Positions 709 through 10,166 of a stretch of DNA of 14,833 nucleotides are shown here, piece by piece. The position numbers were made by a program, and so were the translations under genes. The stretch is taken from the NCBI GenBank assembly GCA_002404055.1, contig DHIZ01000088.1:39197-54029 (forward strand), written 5' to 3'. This stretch comes from Chloroflexi bacterium UBA4733. Lineage in GTDB: Bacteria > Chloroflexota > UBA4733. How positions within the stretch are numbered: the stretch's first letter is position 1; each line of letters begins with the position of its first letter. Under the pieces are notes generated by a model, which had not been told where the DNA came from, did not search any database, and was given only the letters and a program-made list of their open reading frames with translations.

Positions 709-1314
709 ATGGCGAACAAGACGCGGATACGAACTGCCCGGCATGTCGGTAGCCGGTCGCGCCGCTGGCTCTGGGGCGGCCTGGCTGGAATTATCGTCGT
801 CGTCATCGTCGCCTTCGCCGTGGTCGTCAGCCATTCCGGTAGCGCGGTTGGCGGCACGGCGCTCGGCACTGCCGTCCCCGGCATGGCGCTCCCGTCCACC
901 GCCGGGCAGCCGATCTCGCTCGCCGACTATCGCGGTCGCAAGGTGGTGCTCTACTTCTATGAGGGATCGACTTGAGGGGCTTGCCAACAGCAGCTCGTGC
1001 AGCTGCAACAGGATCTGCCGGCCATCCAGGGTCTGAACGCGGCCGTGCTCGCCGTGAGTGTCGACCCCGTCGCCACCTCCCAATCGGTGGTGCAGCAATT
1101 GCACCTCGCCTTCCCGATCCTGCAAGATACGGATCACCAACTGGGCTCGGCGCTGGGCGACTTCAGAATCGCCGGTGGAATGGACATGGGGCCGGTGGAC
1201 AACCACGCCATCTTCGTGATTGGTCCGCAGGGGACGGTGGTCTGGAAGCAACTCGCCCCGGACACCATGCACGTCCCCGACGCCTCGGTCATCGCGGCGC
1301 TGCAGAAGGCCTGA
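709..1314 (+). CDS. Membrane-anchored thioredoxin-fold selenoprotein (in-frame TGA at 973-975)
   Basis: Predicted extracytoplasmic redoxin (AhpC/TSA/TlpA-like) of 201 residues if the TGA at 973-975 is read as selenocysteine. ATG 709 follows GAGG at a spacing of seven. Residues 20-41 form a hydrophobic anchor after a basic N-terminus, then a linker, then the redoxin fold starting near SLADYRGRKVVLYFYEGST. Residue 89 is the TGA and is followed by Gly-Ala-Cys92, so the site reads U-x-x-C exactly where thioredoxin-fold proteins carry CxxC. The same frame runs on without another stop to 1314 and includes the typical redoxin C-terminal half (NHAIFVIGPQGTVVWK). Conventional gene calling would give a truncated 88-residue protein, or a GTG start at 997 that lacks the active site. 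Alternatives are a Cys-to-stop mutation or a sequencing error. No sel genes are in the window. Confidence 0.78.
990..1006 (+). promoter_or_regulatory. Candidate bacterial SECIS hairpin
   Basis: A perfect 6-bp stem GCAGCT/AGCTGC (990-995 with 1001-1006) closes a five-base loop, CGTGC. The loop begins 20 bases after the TGA and its second base is G. Bacterial SECIS elements are known to lie just after the UGA within the coding region, with the apical loop roughly 16-37 bases away and a G among the first two loop bases. The stem lies over repeated Gln/Leu codons (CAG, CTG), which can form such stems by chance. Confidence 0.5.
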
Positions 1315-1317
1315 GCG

Positions 1318-1581
1318 ATGGCGACGATACAGATCACCCTACTCACCGCCGAGGGATGCCACTACTGCGCGCGCGCCCGGCAGATCCTAGAACGTCTGAC
1401 CCAGGAGTGGCCGCTGGCCGTGGAGGAAGTGCTGATGCATTCGCCGGAGGGCGCGAACATGGCCCTTCGCGATGGGATCGCCTTCCCGCCGGGCATGTAT
1501 CTGAACGGCGAACTCTTCGGGTATGGTCGACTGTCGGAGGGTAAGCTACGTCGACGCCTTGGCGAATTGACCCGCCCATGA
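1318..1581 (+). CDS. Small glutaredoxin/thioredoxin-like protein (CxxC)
   Basis: An 87-residue protein with a beta strand (IQITLLTAEG) leading into C14-His-Tyr-C17 and an amphipathic helix, the layout of glutaredoxin-type thiol oxidoreductases. No signal peptide is seen, so it is probably cytoplasmic. A proline pair (FPPGMYLNGELFGYGRLS) sits where the cis-Pro loop and the following strand of the fold are expected. It begins three bases after the selenoprotein stop, and its own stop overlaps the next ATG (ATGA at 1578-1581), so the three genes form one translationally coupled operon. A role in passing electrons between the cytoplasm and the anchored redoxin is inference from context. Confidence 0.8.
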   Translation: MATIQITLLTAEGCHYCARARQILERLTQEWPLAVEEVLMHSPEGANMALRDGIAFPPGMYLNGELFGYGRLSEGKLRRRLGELTRP

Positions 1582-2156
1582 ACGCGCTGATCTACAGCAG
1601 TTCGCTCGTCGCCGCCTTCCTGGGAGGCATCCTGGCGCTGACGGCGCTCTCCCCTTCCATCCTGACGGCAGCCGGGCTGGGGCTGGCCTACGTGTTCGGC
1701 ATGGTGTTCCCGCTGCTGCTGGCGGCGGCCCTCTGGGAGCGGTTGGGACTGGACCAGCGCACCCTCACCCGCCTGGGGGCGCGCCGGCTTGTGCTGGGTA
1801 CCTGGCCGATCAAGGTCACCGATGCTGTAGCCGGGCTGATGTTCCTGGCGATGGGGATGCTGGCGCTGTACCTGGCCTTCACTGGTCAGAGCACCTACAC
1901 GCCGGACTTCCTGCTGGCCTTCAATCACTGGGCCTCCGGCATCCTGGCCGACGTCGCCCTCCGCCTGCAAAGCGTGCCGCTCGTCTTCCAGGGGGCCGGA
2001 TTACTGCTCATCGCCGTCGCGGTGGTGTGGTTGACCTGGAGACGCCCGGCAGAGCGACTCGCCGCCGTTCCGCCCAGGGAAGCCGGCGCGCTGGCGGCAT
2101 CGGGTGCCGCGGCCGAGGACGATGGTGATCGGGTCGCGGCGCGCGGCATCCGCTAG
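1578..2156 (+). CDS. CcdA/DsbD-type membrane protein, shortened and lacking cysteines
   Basis: A 192-residue integral membrane protein with about four hydrophobic segments (roughly residues 5-22, 30-50, 83-102, 137-155) and a polar tail. The N-terminus (NALIYSSSLVAAFLGGILAL) resembles the first helix of CcdA-like thiol-disulfide transporters. The following part (LTAAGLGLAYVFGMVFPLLL, then WPIKVTDAVAGLMFLAMGML) resembles the second half of that family. The family's conserved Cys residues, which carry electrons across the membrane, are absent: the whole protein contains no Cys. The likely reading is an in-frame internal deletion joining the first helix to the second half at a shared 'GILAL'-like stretch. 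It could be non-functional, a structural partner, or an assembly collapse. Family assignment rests on recalled similarity and operon context. Confidence 0.6.
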   Translation: MNALIYSSSLVAAFLGGILALTALSPSILTAAGLGLAYVFGMVFPLLLAAALWERLGLDQRTLTRLGARRLVLGTWPIKVTDAVAGLMFLAMGMLALYLAFTGQSTYTPDFLLAFNHWASGILADVALRLQSVPLVFQGAGLLLIAVAVVWLTWRRPAERLAAVPPREAGALAASGAAAEDDGDRVAARGIR

Positions 2157-2220
2157 GCTGCGACGCGACGCTCGGATGCCGCGCTAAGATGCTCCGCAAT
2201 AGCGTGAGATGGGGGATGGC

Positions 2221-2661
2221 ATGGAACCCGAGTGGGACATCGGTACGTTTCGTCCAGATCGGCCGGGGGTCCGCAAGGTGCTCGGTGACCTGGAGGCAGA
2301 GATCATGGAGTTGATCTGGGCCCGCCCGACCGGCCGGGGCACCACGGTCCGGGAGATTTTCGAGGTGCTGTACGAGCGTCGCCACCTCGCCTACACCACG
2401 GTGATGAACACCATGACCCGCCTGGCGCGGAAGCATATGTTGCGCGCCGAGAAAGCCGATCAGGCTTACGTCTACTTCCCCAACTTCACCCAGGACGAGT
2501 TCACCGCACGCTTCGTCGGCCGCATCCTGGAAGACCTGGTCCTGAACTTCGGCGGCGCCCTGACCCGTGAGCTGGACCGGATGAGCGATCCAGCGCTGCG
2601 GCGGCGCGCTGAGCGCCTGTTGGCGGAGCTGGACCGGCGACGGACAGCGGAGGAACCCTGA
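2221..2661 (+). CDS. BlaI/MecI/CopY-family transcriptional repressor
   Basis: A winged-helix repressor of 146 residues. The core GDLEAEIMELIWARPTG followed by TTVREIFEVLYERRHLAYTT and VMNTMTRLARKHMLRAEK is the hallmark of the Penicillinase_R family, which includes the YTTVMNTMTRL recognition helix. The C-terminal part (DEFTARFVGRILEDLVLNFGG to the end) matches the dimerisation region. I chose ATG 2221, preceded by GGGGA at good spacing; an in-frame ATG at 2209 would add four residues. Members are normally inactivated by proteolysis triggered by a partner M56 protease. That partner is the next gene, whose ATG overlaps this stop (TGATG). The regulated target is unknown; no beta-lactamase or penicillin-binding gene is intact nearby. 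Confidence 0.9.
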   Translation: MEPEWDIGTFRPDRPGVRKVLGDLEAEIMELIWARPTGRGTTVREIFEVLYERRHLAYTTVMNTMTRLARKHMLRAEKADQAYVYFPNFTQDEFTARFVGRILEDLVLNFGGALTRELDRMSDPALRRRAERLLAELDRRRTAEEP

Positions 2662-3629
2662 TGCCGTTCCTCGTCGTTCTCGCGAGCTTGCTACTTGTCA
2701 CGCTGCTCGGTGATGCGGCGCTGCGCGCTTCGTGGGCGAACCGCTTCCCGCAGTTGCCCCTCGCGGTGCTTGCTGCGCCCCTGGCCAGTTTGGGACTGGG
2801 CGTGTGGATGCTGGCGGCGTTCGGTCGATCGGTGTGCTGGCTCGGCGCGCCGCCCTGGGATGAGCTGCTCAATCTGGCGCTGCCGGTCGGCATGGCACTG
2901 CTGGCGTCCGCAGCACTCGTCCTGGCGCTGGTCCGGCTGTGCCTCCTCTGGCGGGTCATCGCGCGCCGGAGCCTTCCCATCCCGTCCGCGCTTCAGGCAA
3001 GCCTCCACGGCCTCGCCCACCGGTTCGGGTTGGCGCCGCCGATTCTGCGCATCATCCCCTCCCATCAGCCAGGGGCATGCATTTGCGGATGGCCCGGCGG
3101 CCGGCCCCGGCTGCTGCTCTCGCCGTGGATGACAGCCCGTCTCGACGCGCCGGAGATCGAAGGGGTGCTGGCCCACGAACTGGCGCACATTGCTCGCCGT
3201 GACCATGCGCTGGTCTGGCTGGTCGTGCTCCTGCGAGACGCCTTCTGGTACCTGCCGAGCAGTCGGGCCGCCTTCCGCAAGTTCCAGTACCAGCAGGAGC
3301 TCGCCTGCGACGACCTGGCGGTCGGCGTGACCGGCAGGCCGTTAGCGCTGGCCAGCGCCCTCGCGAAGGTCTGGCAAGCAGCGCTCGGCCTGCGACTGGC
3401 GCTGGTCGCGGGGGTTGGTCTGGCCGGCGCGAACACCGATGTGGAGGGACGCATCCGGCGCTTGATGGAGGAGAGGCAACCATTGGTCGGCGACGCCGGC
3501 CACCAGCCGGGACCGCTCATGCGCGCCGGGGGGGCCGCCGTTGCCATCCTGGGCATGCAGAGCATGAATGTCGCGCTTTTGCTCGTGCCGATGGGCTGCG
3601 GTTCGCTCCTCCATATGCTCGGTTGGTAA
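2661..3629 (+). CDS. M56-family membrane metallopeptidase (BlaR1/MecR1-like, no sensor domain)
   Basis: A 322-residue membrane protease. N-terminal hydrophobic segments at roughly residues 3-20, 33-55 and 70-98 precede a cytoplasmic zinc-protease domain with H172-E-L-A-H176 (AHELAHIARRD) and the third-ligand segment E213-L-A-C-D-D. A last hydrophobic helix lies near 290-315. BlaR1 and MecR1 are about 585-600 residues because they carry an extracellular penicillin-binding sensor. This protein ends after the last helix and has no such sensor, like many short M56 proteins of unknown signal. It overlaps the repressor stop by one base, supporting a protease-repressor pair. The likely role is cleavage of the upstream repressor on an unidentified envelope or redox signal. 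Confidence 0.88.
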   Translation: MPFLVVLASLLLVTLLGDAALRASWANRFPQLPLAVLAAPLASLGLGVWMLAAFGRSVCWLGAPPWDELLNLALPVGMALLASAALVLALVRLCLLWRVIARRSLPIPSALQASLHGLAHRFGLAPPILRIIPSHQPGACICGWPGGRPRLLLSPWMTARLDAPEIEGVLAHELAHIARRDHALVWLVVLLRDAFWYLPSSRAAFRKFQYQQELACDDLAVGVTGRPLALASALAKVWQAALGLRLALVAGVGLAGANTDVEGRIRRLMEERQPLVGDAGHQPGPLMRAGGAAVAILGMQSMNVALLLVPMGCGSLLHMLGW

Positions 3630-5842: not shown

Positions 5843-6022
5843 ATCAAACCATGATGACCCTGCGTCGCGGATAAGCCCGCTTCCCCCTGGGCCGCTACGC
5901 AACTCCATTGTGGAAGGATTTACGAGGAGCGGGTTGCCCAGCTTCTGGCTCCGGTCCGCCGGGATGCGCAGCGTCCACCTGTTGCTTGATGAGCGCTTCG
6001 CCCATTTCTTCTTATTGCCGCT

Positions 6023-6058
6023 GGTACTATGGACAGTCGTACCCTGTGTGCGTATACT
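6023..6058 (+). promoter_or_regulatory. Sigma70-like promoter with overlapping dyad
   Basis: TGGACA (6030-6035), a 17-base spacer and TATACT (6053-6058) form a near-consensus promoter, with a start expected near 6065 and the gene's ATG at 6082. The inverted repeat GGTAC-N11-GTACC (6023-6043) spans the -35 box and could be a repressor or activator site. Confidence 0.6.
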
Positions 6059-6081
6059 GTGGGATAGAGGAGACTTGCGCG

Positions 6082-6609
6082 ATGTCGATGCTGAAGTGTT
6101 GTCTCAACCCGAAGGTGCTGATCGGGCTGGCGGCGGCGGCGGTGGGAGTGCTGATCTTCCAGCCGAGCCTTTTCTGGTCCGCGCTGCCGACTATGGCCAT
6201 CTTGATCTGCCCCCTCTCGATGGGCCTCATGATGTTCGGCATGGGCAAGATGGGCGGCATGGGCGGCCAGCAGGCGCAGCCAGGCCAGCAGTACACCTGC
6301 CCGATGCATCCGGACGTGCGCCAGGACCAGCCGGGACGCTGTGCGAAGTGCGGGATGAACCTGGCGCCGGCTACCCCGCTCCAGCCGACACAAGTCGCCC
6401 CGGCAACCGCCAACGGCGTTCCGCTCAGCCGTGAGGAGCAGCTCGCCCGGTTGCAGGCACAGCTCCGGCAGGTGAGCGACCAGCAGGCGGCGCTGCAGCT
6501 ACAGATGGAAAATCTAGAGACGGCCGAGATGCCCGTTCCCACGAGCAAGGCAATCCGGGAGGCGGAGCAGGTGGCGCGAGCCGCCGACAAGGCCGCACAG
6601 CGCAAGTAA
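6082..6609 (+). CDS. Membrane protein with heavy-metal-binding domain (CPMHP...CxxCGM)
   Basis: A 175-residue protein. A short Cys-bearing N-terminus (MLKCCLNPK) leads to one or two hydrophobic segments (about residues 11-28 and 32-52), then a Met/Gly-rich stretch (MMFGMGKMGGMGG). Residues 70-95 form a heavy-metal-binding domain of the type found at the N-terminus of copper ATPases and in CusB-like proteins: YTCPMHPDV with C73 and H76, then C87-A-K-C90-G-M. Residues about 116-148 are Gln/Leu/Glu-rich and likely coiled coil. The start at 6082 follows AGAGGAG; ATG 6088 is an alternative. No catalytic domain is present, so a metal-buffering or chaperone role is inferred. It lies upstream of other Met-rich, copper-type genes but is separated from them by about 440 bases. 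Confidence 0.75.
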   Translation: MSMLKCCLNPKVLIGLAAAAVGVLIFQPSLFWSALPTMAILICPLSMGLMMFGMGKMGGMGGQQAQPGQQYTCPMHPDVRQDQPGRCAKCGMNLAPATPLQPTQVAPATANGVPLSREEQLARLQAQLRQVSDQQAALQLQMENLETAEMPVPTSKAIREAEQVARAADKAAQRK

Positions 6610-7051
6610 GCCGAAGGCGGCTGGCCGACCTGGGTCAGCAGGAGCACGTCCATCGAGCTACCGTGCCGCCCCAGCCAAACCCGCCCGGATTGTTGTGCAT
6701 GAATACTGCGCCCAGCCCGAGGATCGCCGGTGCGCCGACGATACCCGCCGCCACGCCGACGGCGAAGAGGAAGCTCATGGCGACGAGCAGACGGCCGTTC
6801 TGGAAGGGGCTGGCCGGCACCGCGAAGGAGGTGCGGGGTGGAACCTGCGCCGCGGGCAGGAGGGGTGCGCCTTGCGCCGATCTTGACTGAACCCGGCACG
6901 ATTCCTTGACCTCGGCACGTCATACTGGTGATCGGCCCGTGGTGCTGGGAGCAGGTCGCTCCGCAGGAATGCCGGCACTCGGGATGCAGTCGACGTGGGG
7001 TGTGACATCATGTCGAAGACGCGAATGACGTAGGAACTGGGGGGTTTCGAA
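6610..7051. other. Gene-free stretch before the SHOCT gene
   Basis: No confident gene, RNA or promoter is seen. A minus-strand frame with one hydrophobic segment is listed separately. A run of G just before 7052 serves as the ribosome site of the next gene. Confidence 0.5.
6635..6778 (-). CDS. Possible small membrane peptide or remnant
   Basis: From ATG 6778 the minus strand would encode 47 residues with a clear hydrophobic segment (MSFLFAVGVAAGIVGAPAIL) followed by a Gly/Asn-rich part (MHNNPGGFGWGG). The open frame extends upstream to a stop near 6912 without another ATG and without a convincing ribosome site; a GTG start at 6820 is possible. It may be the tail of a decayed single-span protein. 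I do not recognise a family, and it may not be expressed. Confidence 0.25.
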   Translation of the reverse strand: MSFLFAVGVAAGIVGAPAILGLGAVFMHNNPGGFGWGGTVARWTCSC

Positions 7052-7306
7052 ATGATGGGCGGATTCGGTTCCGGCTATGGCTTGATGGGCTGGGGATGGC
7101 TGGCGATGCTGCTCGGCTTCCTGGCAATGCTCGCCGTCATCGCGGTGGTCGTCCTCGCAGTAGTCTGGCTCGTGCGGGCGCTGACGGGTACGGCGAGAAC
7201 CGGCACGGAGCGCGAAACGCCGATGGAGACCCTGCGGCGGCGCCTAGCCGCCGGGGAGATCAGCCACGACGAGTTCGAGCGAATGCAGCAAACGCTGGAG
7301 CGCTAG
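7052..7306 (+). CDS. SHOCT-domain small membrane protein
   Basis: An 84-residue protein with a Gly/Met-rich start (MMGGFGSGYGLMGWG), one transmembrane helix at about residues 15-45 and a C-terminal SHOCT domain (residues 57-84: PMETLRRRLAAGEISHDEFE...). SHOCT is a short helical motif often found at the ends of small membrane proteins, probably for oligomerisation. A GGGGGG run eight bases before the ATG is the likely ribosome site; ATG 7055 is an alternative. It precedes the two-component genes by 68 bases. Such proteins commonly sit beside copper-export genes, so a role in metal or envelope stress is plausible but inferred. Confidence 0.82.
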   Translation: MMGGFGSGYGLMGWGWLAMLLGFLAMLAVIAVVVLAVVWLVRALTGTARTGTERETPMETLRRRLAAGEISHDEFERMQQTLER

Positions 7307-7374
7307 CGGGTGCGCTCACGGCGGGCGGGCGGGCGTTTGGGGCGAACGTCAGTGTGGTGCGGGAGGATGCCGAC

Positions 7375-8070
7375 GTGACGACGGTGCTGGTCGTGGATGA
7401 CGAGGCGAACCTGGTCGAGCTCGTGCAGGGATATCTCGAACAGGAGGGCTATACCGTCCTGACCGCAGGCGATGGGCGCGCTGCGTTGGACCTGGCTCGT
7501 AGCGGCAGTCCAGACGTGATCATCCTTGATCTCCTCCTACCCGGTCTGGACGGCCTGGAAGTCTGCCGGCAGGTGCGGCAGTTCTCCGACGCTTACGTGC
7601 TCATGCTCACGGCCAAGGCCGAGGAGGTGGACAAGCTCGTGGGCCTTGCGGTGGGCGCCGACGATTACCTCACCAAACCGTTCAGCCCGCGCGAACTCGT
7701 CGCCCGCGTCAAGGCAATGCTCCGCCGCCCGAGAACGGCCCTGCCCGGTGCGCCGGACACGCCCGCCATCCGGCGCTTCGGTGAGGTGGCGCTCGACGAC
7801 GCCCGCCACGAGGTCACCAAACGAGGGGAGGTCGTGCCGCTCACGCCGCGCGAGTTCGCCCTCCTGGCGACGCTGGCCGGGCATCCGGGGCGCGTCTTTA
7901 CGCGGGACCAGCTCCTGGAGCGCATCTGGGGGGATGACTTCTACGACGACCACGTCGTGGACGTGCATGTCGGCAACCTGCGGCGCAAGATCGAGGATGA
8001 TCCGGGCCAGCCGTGCTATATCGAGACGGTGCGCGGCGTCGGCTACCGTTTCGGCGTCCGTCAGGACTAG
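7375..8070 (+). CDS. OmpR/PhoB-family response regulator
   Basis: A 231-residue two-component regulator. The receiver domain (1-120) has the acidic pair D8-D9, phospho-acceptor D52 in VIILDLLLPGLDG, T78 in LMLTAKAE and K100 in YLTKPFSP. The winged-helix DNA-binding domain (about 130-229) has LTPREFALLATLAGHPGRVF, HVVDVHVGNLRRKIEDDP and the terminal TVRGVGYRFG. The start is GTG 7375, after GGGAGGA at a spacing of seven, which places the receiver beta-1 strand at the N-terminus as usual. The kinase gene follows after four bases, so the two are co-expressed. Likely targets are the neighbouring cupredoxin and SHOCT genes (inference). Confidence 0.95.
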   Translation: MTTVLVVDDEANLVELVQGYLEQEGYTVLTAGDGRAALDLARSGSPDVIILDLLLPGLDGLEVCRQVRQFSDAYVLMLTAKAEEVDKLVGLAVGADDYLTKPFSPRELVARVKAMLRRPRTALPGAPDTPAIRRFGEVALDDARHEVTKRGEVVPLTPREFALLATLAGHPGRVFTRDQLLERIWGDDFYDDHVVDVHVGNLRRKIEDDPGQPCYIETVRGVGYRFGVRQD

Positions 8071-8074
8071 CCGG

Positions 8075-9256
8075 ATGCGCCGCTTGCGGACCACCCTCGT
8101 CGGCCGGCTTTTCCTCTCCTATCTGCTCGTCATCCTCGTGGGGCTGCTGACCACGGTCATCGCCGCGAACAGCCTGGCGCCGGCCTTCTTCAGTGCTGGG
8201 ATGGCGCGCATGATGGGCGGGCGGGGCATGGGCGGTACGGCGATGGGTCCCAGCGCGCAAGGCACTGCGATGATGGATCCCTACGTGCAAGCAGCGTTCC
8301 GGCAGGCCCTCAGCCAGGCGCTCCTGGTGGCCGTCGTCGCCGCGACCGTGACGGCGCTCCTGCTGAACTTGCTCGTGGCCCGCCACATTGCCCGTCCCAT
8401 CCAGGCGGTGCTCCGCGCCACCCGGCGCATCGCCGCCGGGCACTATGCCGAGCGCGTGGCGCTCCCGGCGACCGCCGCCGGCGATGAGTTGGCCCAGCTC
8501 GCCGCCGGCTTCAACGCCATGGCCCGCTCGCTGGAGGAAGCGGAACGGCGGCGCCTCGAACTGGTGGGCGACGTGGCGCACGAGCTGCGCACCCCCGTAG
8601 CGACGCTGGAGGGCTATCTGGAGGGGCTGCTCGACGGCGTCGTGGCGCCGTCGGACCGCATCTGGGCCAAACTGCACGGCGAGGCGGGACGCCTGCGCCG
8701 CCTCATCGACGACCTGCAGGAGGTATCGCGGGCGGAGGCCCGTCAGCTCTCGCTGACGGTGCGGGCGGTACCGCCCGGTGCGATCATCCAGGCCGCTTTG
8801 GATCGGATGCAGCCCCAGTTCGAAGAGCAGGGGCTCGCGCTGGAAAGCCGGGCGCCACCCGGCCTCCCGCCGGTGGCCGCCGACCAGGACCGGGCCGTTC
8901 AGGTGCTGACGAACCTCTTGACGAATGCGCTGCGCTACACGCCAACGCCGGGACACGTCACGCTCTCGGTCGAGCGGGCAGGCGCTGCCGTCAGGATCGC
9001 CGTCCGCGACAGCGGCATCGGCTTCACGGCGGAGCAAGGGCAGCGTCTCTTTGAACGCTTCTACCGGGCGGAGAAGTCCCGCTCACGGGCGCTGGGCGGT
9101 TCAGGGATCGGGCTCACCATCGCCCGGGCGCTGGTGGAGGCGATGGACGGGCGTCTCTGGGCCGAGTCGCCGGGTCCGGGACAAGGCAGCACCTTCGCGT
9201 TCACGTTACCCATCGCGCAGTCGACCGCCCCGTCGCACGGCTTGAGCAAATCTTGA
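8075..9256 (+). CDS. Sensor histidine kinase with Met-rich sensor loop
   Basis: A 393-residue membrane kinase partnered with the preceding regulator. It has TM1 at about 11-33, an extracytoplasmic loop at about 34-79, TM2 at about 80-102 and a HAMP domain at about 102-155. The H-box has H169 (GDVAHELRTPVATLEGYLEG), the N-box is NLLTNALRYTP (280-290), G1 is DSGIGF, the F-box FERFYR and G2 GGSGIGL. The loop is small and Met/Gly-rich (SAGMARMMGGRGMGGTAMG, then AMMDPY), with seven Met in about 25 residues and no Cys or His. Such Met clusters bind Cu(I) or Ag(I) in periplasmic proteins, so this is a likely copper/silver sensor functionally like CusS, although its loop is far shorter than that of CusS. 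Confidence 0.93.
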   Translation: MRRLRTTLVGRLFLSYLLVILVGLLTTVIAANSLAPAFFSAGMARMMGGRGMGGTAMGPSAQGTAMMDPYVQAAFRQALSQALLVAVVAATVTALLLNLLVARHIARPIQAVLRATRRIAAGHYAERVALPATAAGDELAQLAAGFNAMARSLEEAERRRLELVGDVAHELRTPVATLEGYLEGLLDGVVAPSDRIWAKLHGEAGRLRRLIDDLQEVSRAEARQLSLTVRAVPPGAIIQAALDRMQPQFEEQGLALESRAPPGLPPVAADQDRAVQVLTNLLTNALRYTPTPGHVTLSVERAGAAVRIAVRDSGIGFTAEQGQRLFERFYRAEKSRSRALGGSGIGLTIARALVEAMDGRLWAESPGPGQGSTFAFTLPIAQSTAPSHGLSKS

Positions 9257-9356
9257 CGCGGCCGGGCATCGGTCCTTGAGTTTTGGGCTGTAGCCTGGAA
9301 GCAGTGCAGAGGGCAGCGGGTGCCCCAAGCAAGAACAACGACAGTGAGGAAACGAG

Positions 9357-10166
9357 ATGCGGCGATTACGAAGGCGAGAGTTATTGGCTGGCGGGCTGCT
9401 GGCGCTCCCGCTGCTGCTGGGCGGCACGGGCGTGGCGTTGGCGCGTGGCTTGGATGGTCCGACGCTGGATAACGGAACCACTGCAGGTTCATCTGCCGCG
9501 AGCCCTGGGAGCTTCGGTATGCCGGGTGCAGGGTCCGGGATGACCGGTCAAGGCAGCGATGCGGGCCGAGGATACGGGATGATGGGGTCGAGCGGCACGC
9601 TGGGCGGCGGCTCCGGCATGATGGGATCTGGCGGCTCTGGAATGATGGGTGGCGCCGAAGGAATGATGGGCGGCGGCATCGGCGGTCCCGTGATCACCAG
9701 TAGCCCGGCCGCGGCGCAGGTGCTCGCCCAACAGTTGGCCGCCGACGCGGACGTCAATCGGCAGACAAACACCGTCACCTACCACACGGCGCAGGTCGCA
9801 TTGGCGGCCTTGGGGAGCCCGGACGGGCAGAAGGACATGACCTGGAATGTCGACGGCCTGGTGAATCCTACCATCGTCGTCCCGAGGGGCGCGCAGGTCA
9901 CGGTGCATTTCTTTGATGCGGATACCGGGACGCCGCACGGTTGGGAGCTCACGTCCACCCCGCCGCCCTACCCGTCCATGGTCATGATGGACGCCCAGGT
10001 GGCGTTCCCCGGCGCCTTCGCCATGCCGGTACGCGGAGCGACGGCGCAGCAGTGGTTCGGACGGACCGTACAATTCACCGCCGCCAGTGCAGGTACCTAT
10101 TATTACCTCTGCCCGGTGCCAGGCCACGCCAAGCAAGGCATGGTCGGCAAGCTGGTGGTGCAATGA
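9357..10166 (+). CDS. Exported Met-rich cupredoxin (type 1 copper protein)
   Basis: A 269-residue exported protein. The N-terminus MRRLRRRELLAGGLLALPLL is a twin-arginine-type signal (R-R-E-L-L followed by a hydrophobic core and ALA). Residues about 54-110 are low complexity with repeated GMMG units, a probable Cu(I)-binding linker. The C-terminal cupredoxin domain (about 158-269) has a conventional type 1 copper set: His194 (TPHGWEL), then Cys252, His257 and Met262 in YLCPVPGHAKQGM. The spacing C-x4-H-x4-M is classic for plastocyanin-like domains. The ribosome site is GAGGAAACGAG before ATG 9357. Its position 100 bases after the kinase suggests it is regulated by, or part of, the same copper response. 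Electron transfer or copper storage are both possible. Confidence 0.92.
   Translation: MRRLRRRELLAGGLLALPLLLGGTGVALARGLDGPTLDNGTTAGSSAASPGSFGMPGAGSGMTGQGSDAGRGYGMMGSSGTLGGGSGMMGSGGSGMMGGAEGMMGGGIGGPVITSSPAAAQVLAQQLAADADVNRQTNTVTYHTAQVALAALGSPDGQKDMTWNVDGLVNPTIVVPRGAQVTVHFFDADTGTPHGWELTSTPPPYPSMVMMDAQVAFPGAFAMPVRGATAQQWFGRTVQFTAASAGTYYYLCPVPGHAKQGMVGKLVVQ

Follow-up and report, generated by a model that had tools for sequence, protein, structure and literature searches.

Selenoproteins in which selenocysteine (Sec, U) and cysteine form a UxxC pair on a peroxiredoxin-like fold are a generally known type. In the portions of the published catalogues consulted here, peroxiredoxin-like thiol:disulfide oxidoreductases of Pfam family PF00578 are listed with UxxC or UxxU sites (PMC13188914, PMC9312934), a UxxC "Redoxin family protein" of PF08534 is listed with HEU0032618.1 as an example (PMC13188914), and peroxiredoxin-like UxxC groups are counted in ocean metagenomes (PMC2398784). 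The same partial sources describe the organisms richest in selenoproteins as mostly anaerobic, with Thermodesulfobacteriota and Clostridia as examples (PMC13188914), and credit the Chloroflexi, as of 2006, with three selenoproteins from three families (PMC1794560). Here we analyze a 14,833-nucleotide stretch of DNA from Chloroflexi bacterium UBA4733 (contig DHIZ01000088.1, positions 39,197 to 54,029; hereafter the window), in which a redoxin gene at 709..1314 contains an in-frame TGA at 973-975. Judged from its sequence and that of its relatives, this TGA very probably encodes Sec, and the predicted protein probably belongs among the known UxxC peroxiredoxin-like selenoproteins.

The window protein shares the Pfam domain and the UxxC motif with the PF00578 selenoproteins, a likeness drawn from their description and not from the sequence of the example WP_010940744.1; as far as the excerpted entries go, those proteins may or may not have its putative membrane anchor and its D-x-H motif. 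The PF08534 protein, also likened by its partial description only, shares the Redoxin domain and UxxC and may be the same family. PrxQ/Bcp and AhpE have the same fold and the same Cys92 position, whereas the window protein has Sec (Cys in relatives) in place of the Thr of the TxxC motif, an unconserved Arg position and a predicted N-terminal hydrophobic anchor. Oxidoreductases of the ResA/TlpA type generally have a CxxC-type site, an N-terminal anchor and a CcdA neighbor. The window protein resembles them in all three, but its match to the ResA model is weak (41.6 vs. 170 bits), and peroxiredoxins match it best in both sequence and fold. None of the NCBIfam models listed for the window protein reaches its cut-off, the redoxin and selenoprotein models included (NF053656, 27.2 of 100 bits; NF041054, 39.1 of 300; NF040737, 35.2 of 270; NF040769, 26.6 of 120), and we found no publication whose title or opening of the abstract describes the 709..1314 gene, which is possibly in print under another name.

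The TGA codon and its retention in relatives

The first-pass annotation, made from the letters of the window, had read 709-1314 as a frame open apart from TGA 973-975 and encoding a membrane-anchored selenoprotein. Translation bears out the frame, in which TGA 973-975 is the single internal stop between ATG 709 and TGA 1312-1314. The features of the gene are as follows:

709..1314, forward strand: gene for a very probable selenoprotein of the redoxin (AhpC/TSA) fold, 201 residues plus stop, with the TGA at residue 89 read through
781..825, forward strand: hydrophobic helix formed by residues 25-39, following a start rich in Arg and Lys (from the sequence, and a helix in the predicted structure at low pLDDT, the predicted local distance difference test score)
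973..975, forward strand: probable Sec-TGA codon (U89), with TGA in 9 other loci and Cys in 16/16 close homologues
982..984, forward strand: codon TGC of Cys92, the partner of U89 in UxxC, aligned with the peroxiredoxin peroxidatic Cys
990..1006, forward strand: SECIS-like (selenocysteine insertion sequence) hairpin, stem 990-995 with 1001-1006, loop 996-1000 (CGUGC)
1204..1206, forward strand: codon of His166 in the D-x-H motif, opposite the peroxiredoxin Arg in 4/5 printed alignments

With Cys substituted at residue 89, a Pfam search matched AhpC-TSA (E 2.7e-25, residues 53-179) and Redoxin (E 6.9e-16, 58.8 bits against a cut-off of 26.6), so that the AhpC-TSA domain and the UxxC motif coexist in one product. 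The helix at about residues 25-39 is a probable signal anchor; the anchor proposed in the first pass is matched by a hydrophobic helix in a low-confidence model, while the membrane location itself stays a prediction.

A protein search returned 22 matches. Fifteen of them (P0002-P0016) are close and extend across the site, some being incomplete at one end, and every one has Cys at the residue-89 position; with locus L002 (P0024), Cys stands opposite U89 in 16 of 16 close site-spanning homologues. Outside this count are P0017-P0019, which are short or odd gene calls lacking the site, and the distant P0020-P0023. A genome search then gave TGA itself, with locus L001 carrying it at exactly the U89 codon. 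Nine of the 110 genomes in the class of genome G001 match the redoxin at E 1e-20, seven with one TGA at each locus (eight loci) and two with Cys (G002 and G035); an additional row, G060:C154:7-273, starts beyond the Sec site. Among 400 genomes sampled from the phylum, 12 match, including one newly found TGA genome (G150) and five newly found genomes whose matches have no internal stop (G123, G147, G244, G394, and G411). The total besides the window is nine TGA loci in eight genomes (G001, G060, G061, G064, G069, G078, G106, and G150), always at the same codon, in relatives with approximately 50-60% protein identity whose remaining frame is intact. Scattered stops were not seen in the homologues, each match having, over its aligned length, either the U89-position TGA alone or no stop at all.

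The first-pass annotation had argued that a chance nonsense mutation at this codon was less likely than Sec, had named Cys or a retained TGA in relatives as the observations to look for, and had held that random stops in close homologues would speak against it. On each of these points the relatives agree with the selenoprotein. A pseudogene or sequencing error, in which a Cys codon has become TGA and the protein ends at residue 88, would need one base change only, and the adjacent CcdA-like gene does appear internally deleted in the assembly; but the same TGA at nine loci of eight other, divergent genomes with an otherwise kept frame, together with special synonymous conservation immediately downstream of it, leads us to reject this explanation as very improbable.

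Stop usage bears on the idea that TGA is generally reassigned to a sense codon (Trp or Gly) in this organism. The 709-1314 frame would be open under such a code, but TGA terminates 10 of the 17 window frames taken, including the redoxin gene and the next gene (the other 16 are table 11 open reading frames (ORFs), hence free of internal TGA by construction, with starts as predicted), and the homologous residue is Cys in 16/16 close homologues. Reassignment is rejected as having almost no chance of being correct. We similarly reject a split gene yielding an anchored peptide that ends with residue 88, plus a second protein restarting at GTG 997. A 105-residue ORF does begin there, and database entries such as P0018 start beyond the site, but the second product would be missing Cys92 as well as the initial strands of the fold, and the close Cys-form homologues cross the site as a single chain, which makes two products exceedingly unlikely. 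What remains as the best explanation, and one that we hold with high confidence, is a selenoprotein made by hairpin-directed UGA readthrough, predicted to be an envelope-tethered UxxC reductase of the peroxiredoxin fold.

Some further observations concern individual relatives. P0017 starts with MRGLPTAARGAAEP, which resembles a translation, in a different reading frame, of the stretch TTGAGGGG... that holds the same hairpin; on protein alignment it is probably a mis-called additional TGA homologue. Of the two TGA redoxin copies in G060, the one at G060:C154:3755-4297 (L040) is short of some ten residues in the region of the conserved GMDMGPV, which is complete in the other copy on a separate contig. 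The SufS of the window has its nearest counterpart among the 400 phylum genomes in G111 (72% identity; a single gene is a weak marker), where SelA is present, yet there is no redoxin match at 1e-20. A scan of viral_contigs found no relative.

Synonymous constraint and hairpin downstream of the TGA

Bacterial SECIS elements are described, in the section of the catalogue available, as having a loop of 3-9 nt, an upper stem of 4-16 bp, G in one of the first two loop positions, and a distance of 16-37 nt from the UGA (PMC13188914). The hairpin at 990-1006 satisfies these constraints as they are worded there, with a 5-nt loop, a 6-bp stem, G second in the loop, and a distance of 20 nt. The pattern GCAGCTCGTG-N-AG-Y-TGC lies at a constant distance from the TGA in all ten TGA sequences, and the six-pair stem is paired in 60/60 cells across them, with five pairs invariant and one occurring in a G-U form. 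By itself the hairpin is weak evidence for a SECIS element, and Rfam at gathering scores gave no match in the window.

The synonymous constraint is stronger evidence than the hairpin fold. Codons at positions +6 to +11 after the TGA are identical in 67 of 81 same-residue pairs, compared to 531 of 1177 in the codons before the TGA and those past +12. This comparison used six divergent sequences out of the ten (four near-copies were excluded, and the pairs are not independent). Of the seven-codon windows having 30 pairs or more, those from +3 and +4 tie for the most conserved synonymously. The DNA of L002, the one Cys-form DNA among the close relatives compared, does not form a stem of the 990-1006 type.

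Selenocysteine machinery

SelA is present in all eight genomes with the TGA form (in G061 as a fragment of 34 positions at a contig end) and in 81 of the 110 genomes in the class of G001. SelB is above the curated cut-off in six of the eight (G001, G060, G064, G069, G078, and G106) and is represented in G150 by a contig-edge piece only; a SelB match in a 398-residue frame of G061 was taken for EF-Tu and excluded from the count. ARAGORN confirmed tRNA-Sec(UCA) in six (G001, G064, G069, G078, G106, and G150) and reported no tRNA gene within the window. SelD is present in both genomes searched for it, G001 and G002. We regard the Sec machinery as a necessary background and not as proof for the 709..1314 gene.

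The SelD of G001 is split across two contigs, and its first piece (below cut-off; L025, about 1501-1761) has a TGA in GAGUACK, a UxxK site, so the G001 lineage apparently decodes UGA as Sec in another gene as well. From its sequence, this SelD looks like a second selenoprotein there.

Active site, neighboring redox genes, and proposed mechanism

The peroxidatic Cys and the Thr of TxxC have recognized roles in peroxiredoxins, and catalytic members of the fold also have a conserved active-site Arg. In each of the five printed profile alignments with peroxiredoxins of solved structure, U89 lies opposite the Thr of TxxC and Cys92 opposite the peroxidatic Cys. The first-pass annotation placed the TGA at the first active-site Cys of a redoxin; the UxxC pair with Cys92 is confirmed, but in peroxiredoxins the slot of U89 is held by Thr. 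The Arg aligns with His166 in four of the five alignments (three of them with forms of the same protein, AhpE) and with residue 165 in the other. Across 26 family sequences residue 165 is N in 17, S in 5, G in 3, and R in 1, and D-x-H is present in 26/26. The peroxiredoxin fold is present, while neither the Thr/Ser-x-x-Cys catalytic motif (its Thr slot being U89, or Cys in relatives) nor the conserved Arg is matched in the 709..1314 product. These altered positions mean that the canonical peroxidase site is changed and a UxxC redox pair is formed.

Two further redox genes follow directly:

1318..1581, forward strand: glutaredoxin/thioredoxin-like partner gene with a CHYC site (from weak family matches and gene order)
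1578..2156, forward strand: CcdA-like membrane protein without the stretch bearing both Cys-Cys motifs (from comparison with relatives)

The 1318..1581 product reaches 22.4 bits against Pfam Glutaredoxin (cut-off 22.9) and 28.8 against TIGR00411 (cut-off 92.75), and the 1578..2156 product has no Pfam or NCBIfam match. The order redoxin, glutaredoxin-like gene, CcdA is found in six of nine genomes examined (G001, G002, G060 at two loci, G069, G078, and G150), and the contig of G106 terminates inside the redoxin gene. The altered peroxiredoxin site together with this gene order favors an extracytoplasmic thiol:disulfide or peroxide reductase that would be supplied by CcdA.

A selenoprotein that acts instead as a peroxidase, a selenium-using relative of Bcp/PrxQ/AhpE, is the most substantial of the alternatives, although we consider it distinctly less than an even prospect. 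Replacement of the TxxC Thr by Sec or Cys argues against it, as does the unconserved Arg (with His166 or residue 165 in its place), and the neighborhood of CcdA and glutaredoxin fits disulfide exchange.

For the reductase that we favor, the sequence data would be consistent with the following scheme. The ribosome would decode UGA 973-975 as Sec by means of SelB, tRNA-Sec, and the in-frame hairpin 990-1006, giving a peroxiredoxin-fold domain with a UxxC site presumably anchored on the outer face of the cytoplasmic membrane. Sec89 and Cys92 would most likely alternate between a selenenylsulfide and a reduced pair, which may serve to reduce envelope disulfides or peroxides; the CcdA-type membrane protein and the adjacent glutaredoxin-like partner would probably supply the electrons.

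Several observations weigh against parts of this picture. With respect to the hairpin, there is no two-sided compensatory change in the stem among the ten TGA sequences (covariation is uninformative because 5/6 stem pairs never vary), the fold energy of the 63-nt segment is unremarkable (z of 0.73, with 152 of 200 shuffles at least as stable), and 27-28% of synonymously recoded versions of the window's segment are equally stable or retain the stem. The machinery was surveyed in the genomes of the TGA-bearing relatives and not in that of the window organism; among those, SelB was not found in G061, nor tRNA-Sec in G060 or G061, where the candidate matches are tRNA-Ser. Seven genomes without the TGA form have tRNA-Sec in six cases and SelB above cut-off in five (G035 is slightly below it, and G123 has neither tRNA-Sec nor SelB); since most Cys-form genomes have the machinery, it does not discriminate, and the Cys form is no marker of its loss. 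The objections to the electron route are that the 8-9 kb examined from G061 and from G064 contain no glutaredoxin or CcdA match and that the CcdA-like protein of the window contains zero Cys residues.

The CcdA-like gene of the window is approximately 380 nt shorter than those of its relatives, and the missing part, whose junction in the window lies near 1640, has both Cys-Cys motifs. In L002 a 16-nt direct repeat occurs at two places that match the ends of this deletion, so the gap may be either a real slip deletion, in which case another electron donor would serve, or a repeat collapsed in assembly.

Exchange of Sec and Cys, and family status

The phylogeny of 26 family sequences, 10 of the Sec form and 16 of the Cys form, requires at least three changes of Sec/Cys label, even keeping only the well-supported branches, and places the window sequence next to a group that mixes both forms (support 86/91). 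Since the root is arbitrary, the tree does not settle the direction of change. The Sec and Cys versions of the redoxin share one gene neighborhood, which would permit a direct test of the value that Sec adds.

It is tentatively suggested, at somewhat less than even confidence, that these proteins make up a distinct, undescribed family: an envelope reductase of the peroxiredoxin fold with Sec in the TxxC Thr slot and His in the Arg slot, linked to CcdA and a glutaredoxin-like partner in a Sec redox relay, with at least three Sec/Cys switches among Chloroflexota and metagenomic relatives. A predicted envelope redox protein thus far appears to retain Sec across divergent members of one Chloroflexota class. 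Automatic gene calls tend to miss or shorten the gene (P0017 and P0018 look mis-called), and this part of the selenoproteome is therefore easily overlooked.

Other genes of the window

Upstream, the predicted start of a divergent ArsR-type gene (421-498) falls within a short direct repeat (KERAMPAVP, twice), and the gene may therefore truly begin further in, which would leave the repeat as part of the regulatory region. Downstream of the redox genes, 2209-3629 holds a BlaI/CopY-type repressor followed by an M56 (BlaR1-type) peptidase gene, and a comparable repressor lies close to the redoxin in L001, L002, L080, and L081. Further on, 5908-10166 is likely a metal-related neighborhood. One of its proteins carries the motif CPMHPDV...CGM, a two-component system is encoded there as well, and a cupredoxin-like product is above the cut-offs for Pfam SoxE and Copper-bind and below that for TIGR03095 rusticyanin (94.3 bits against 146.7).
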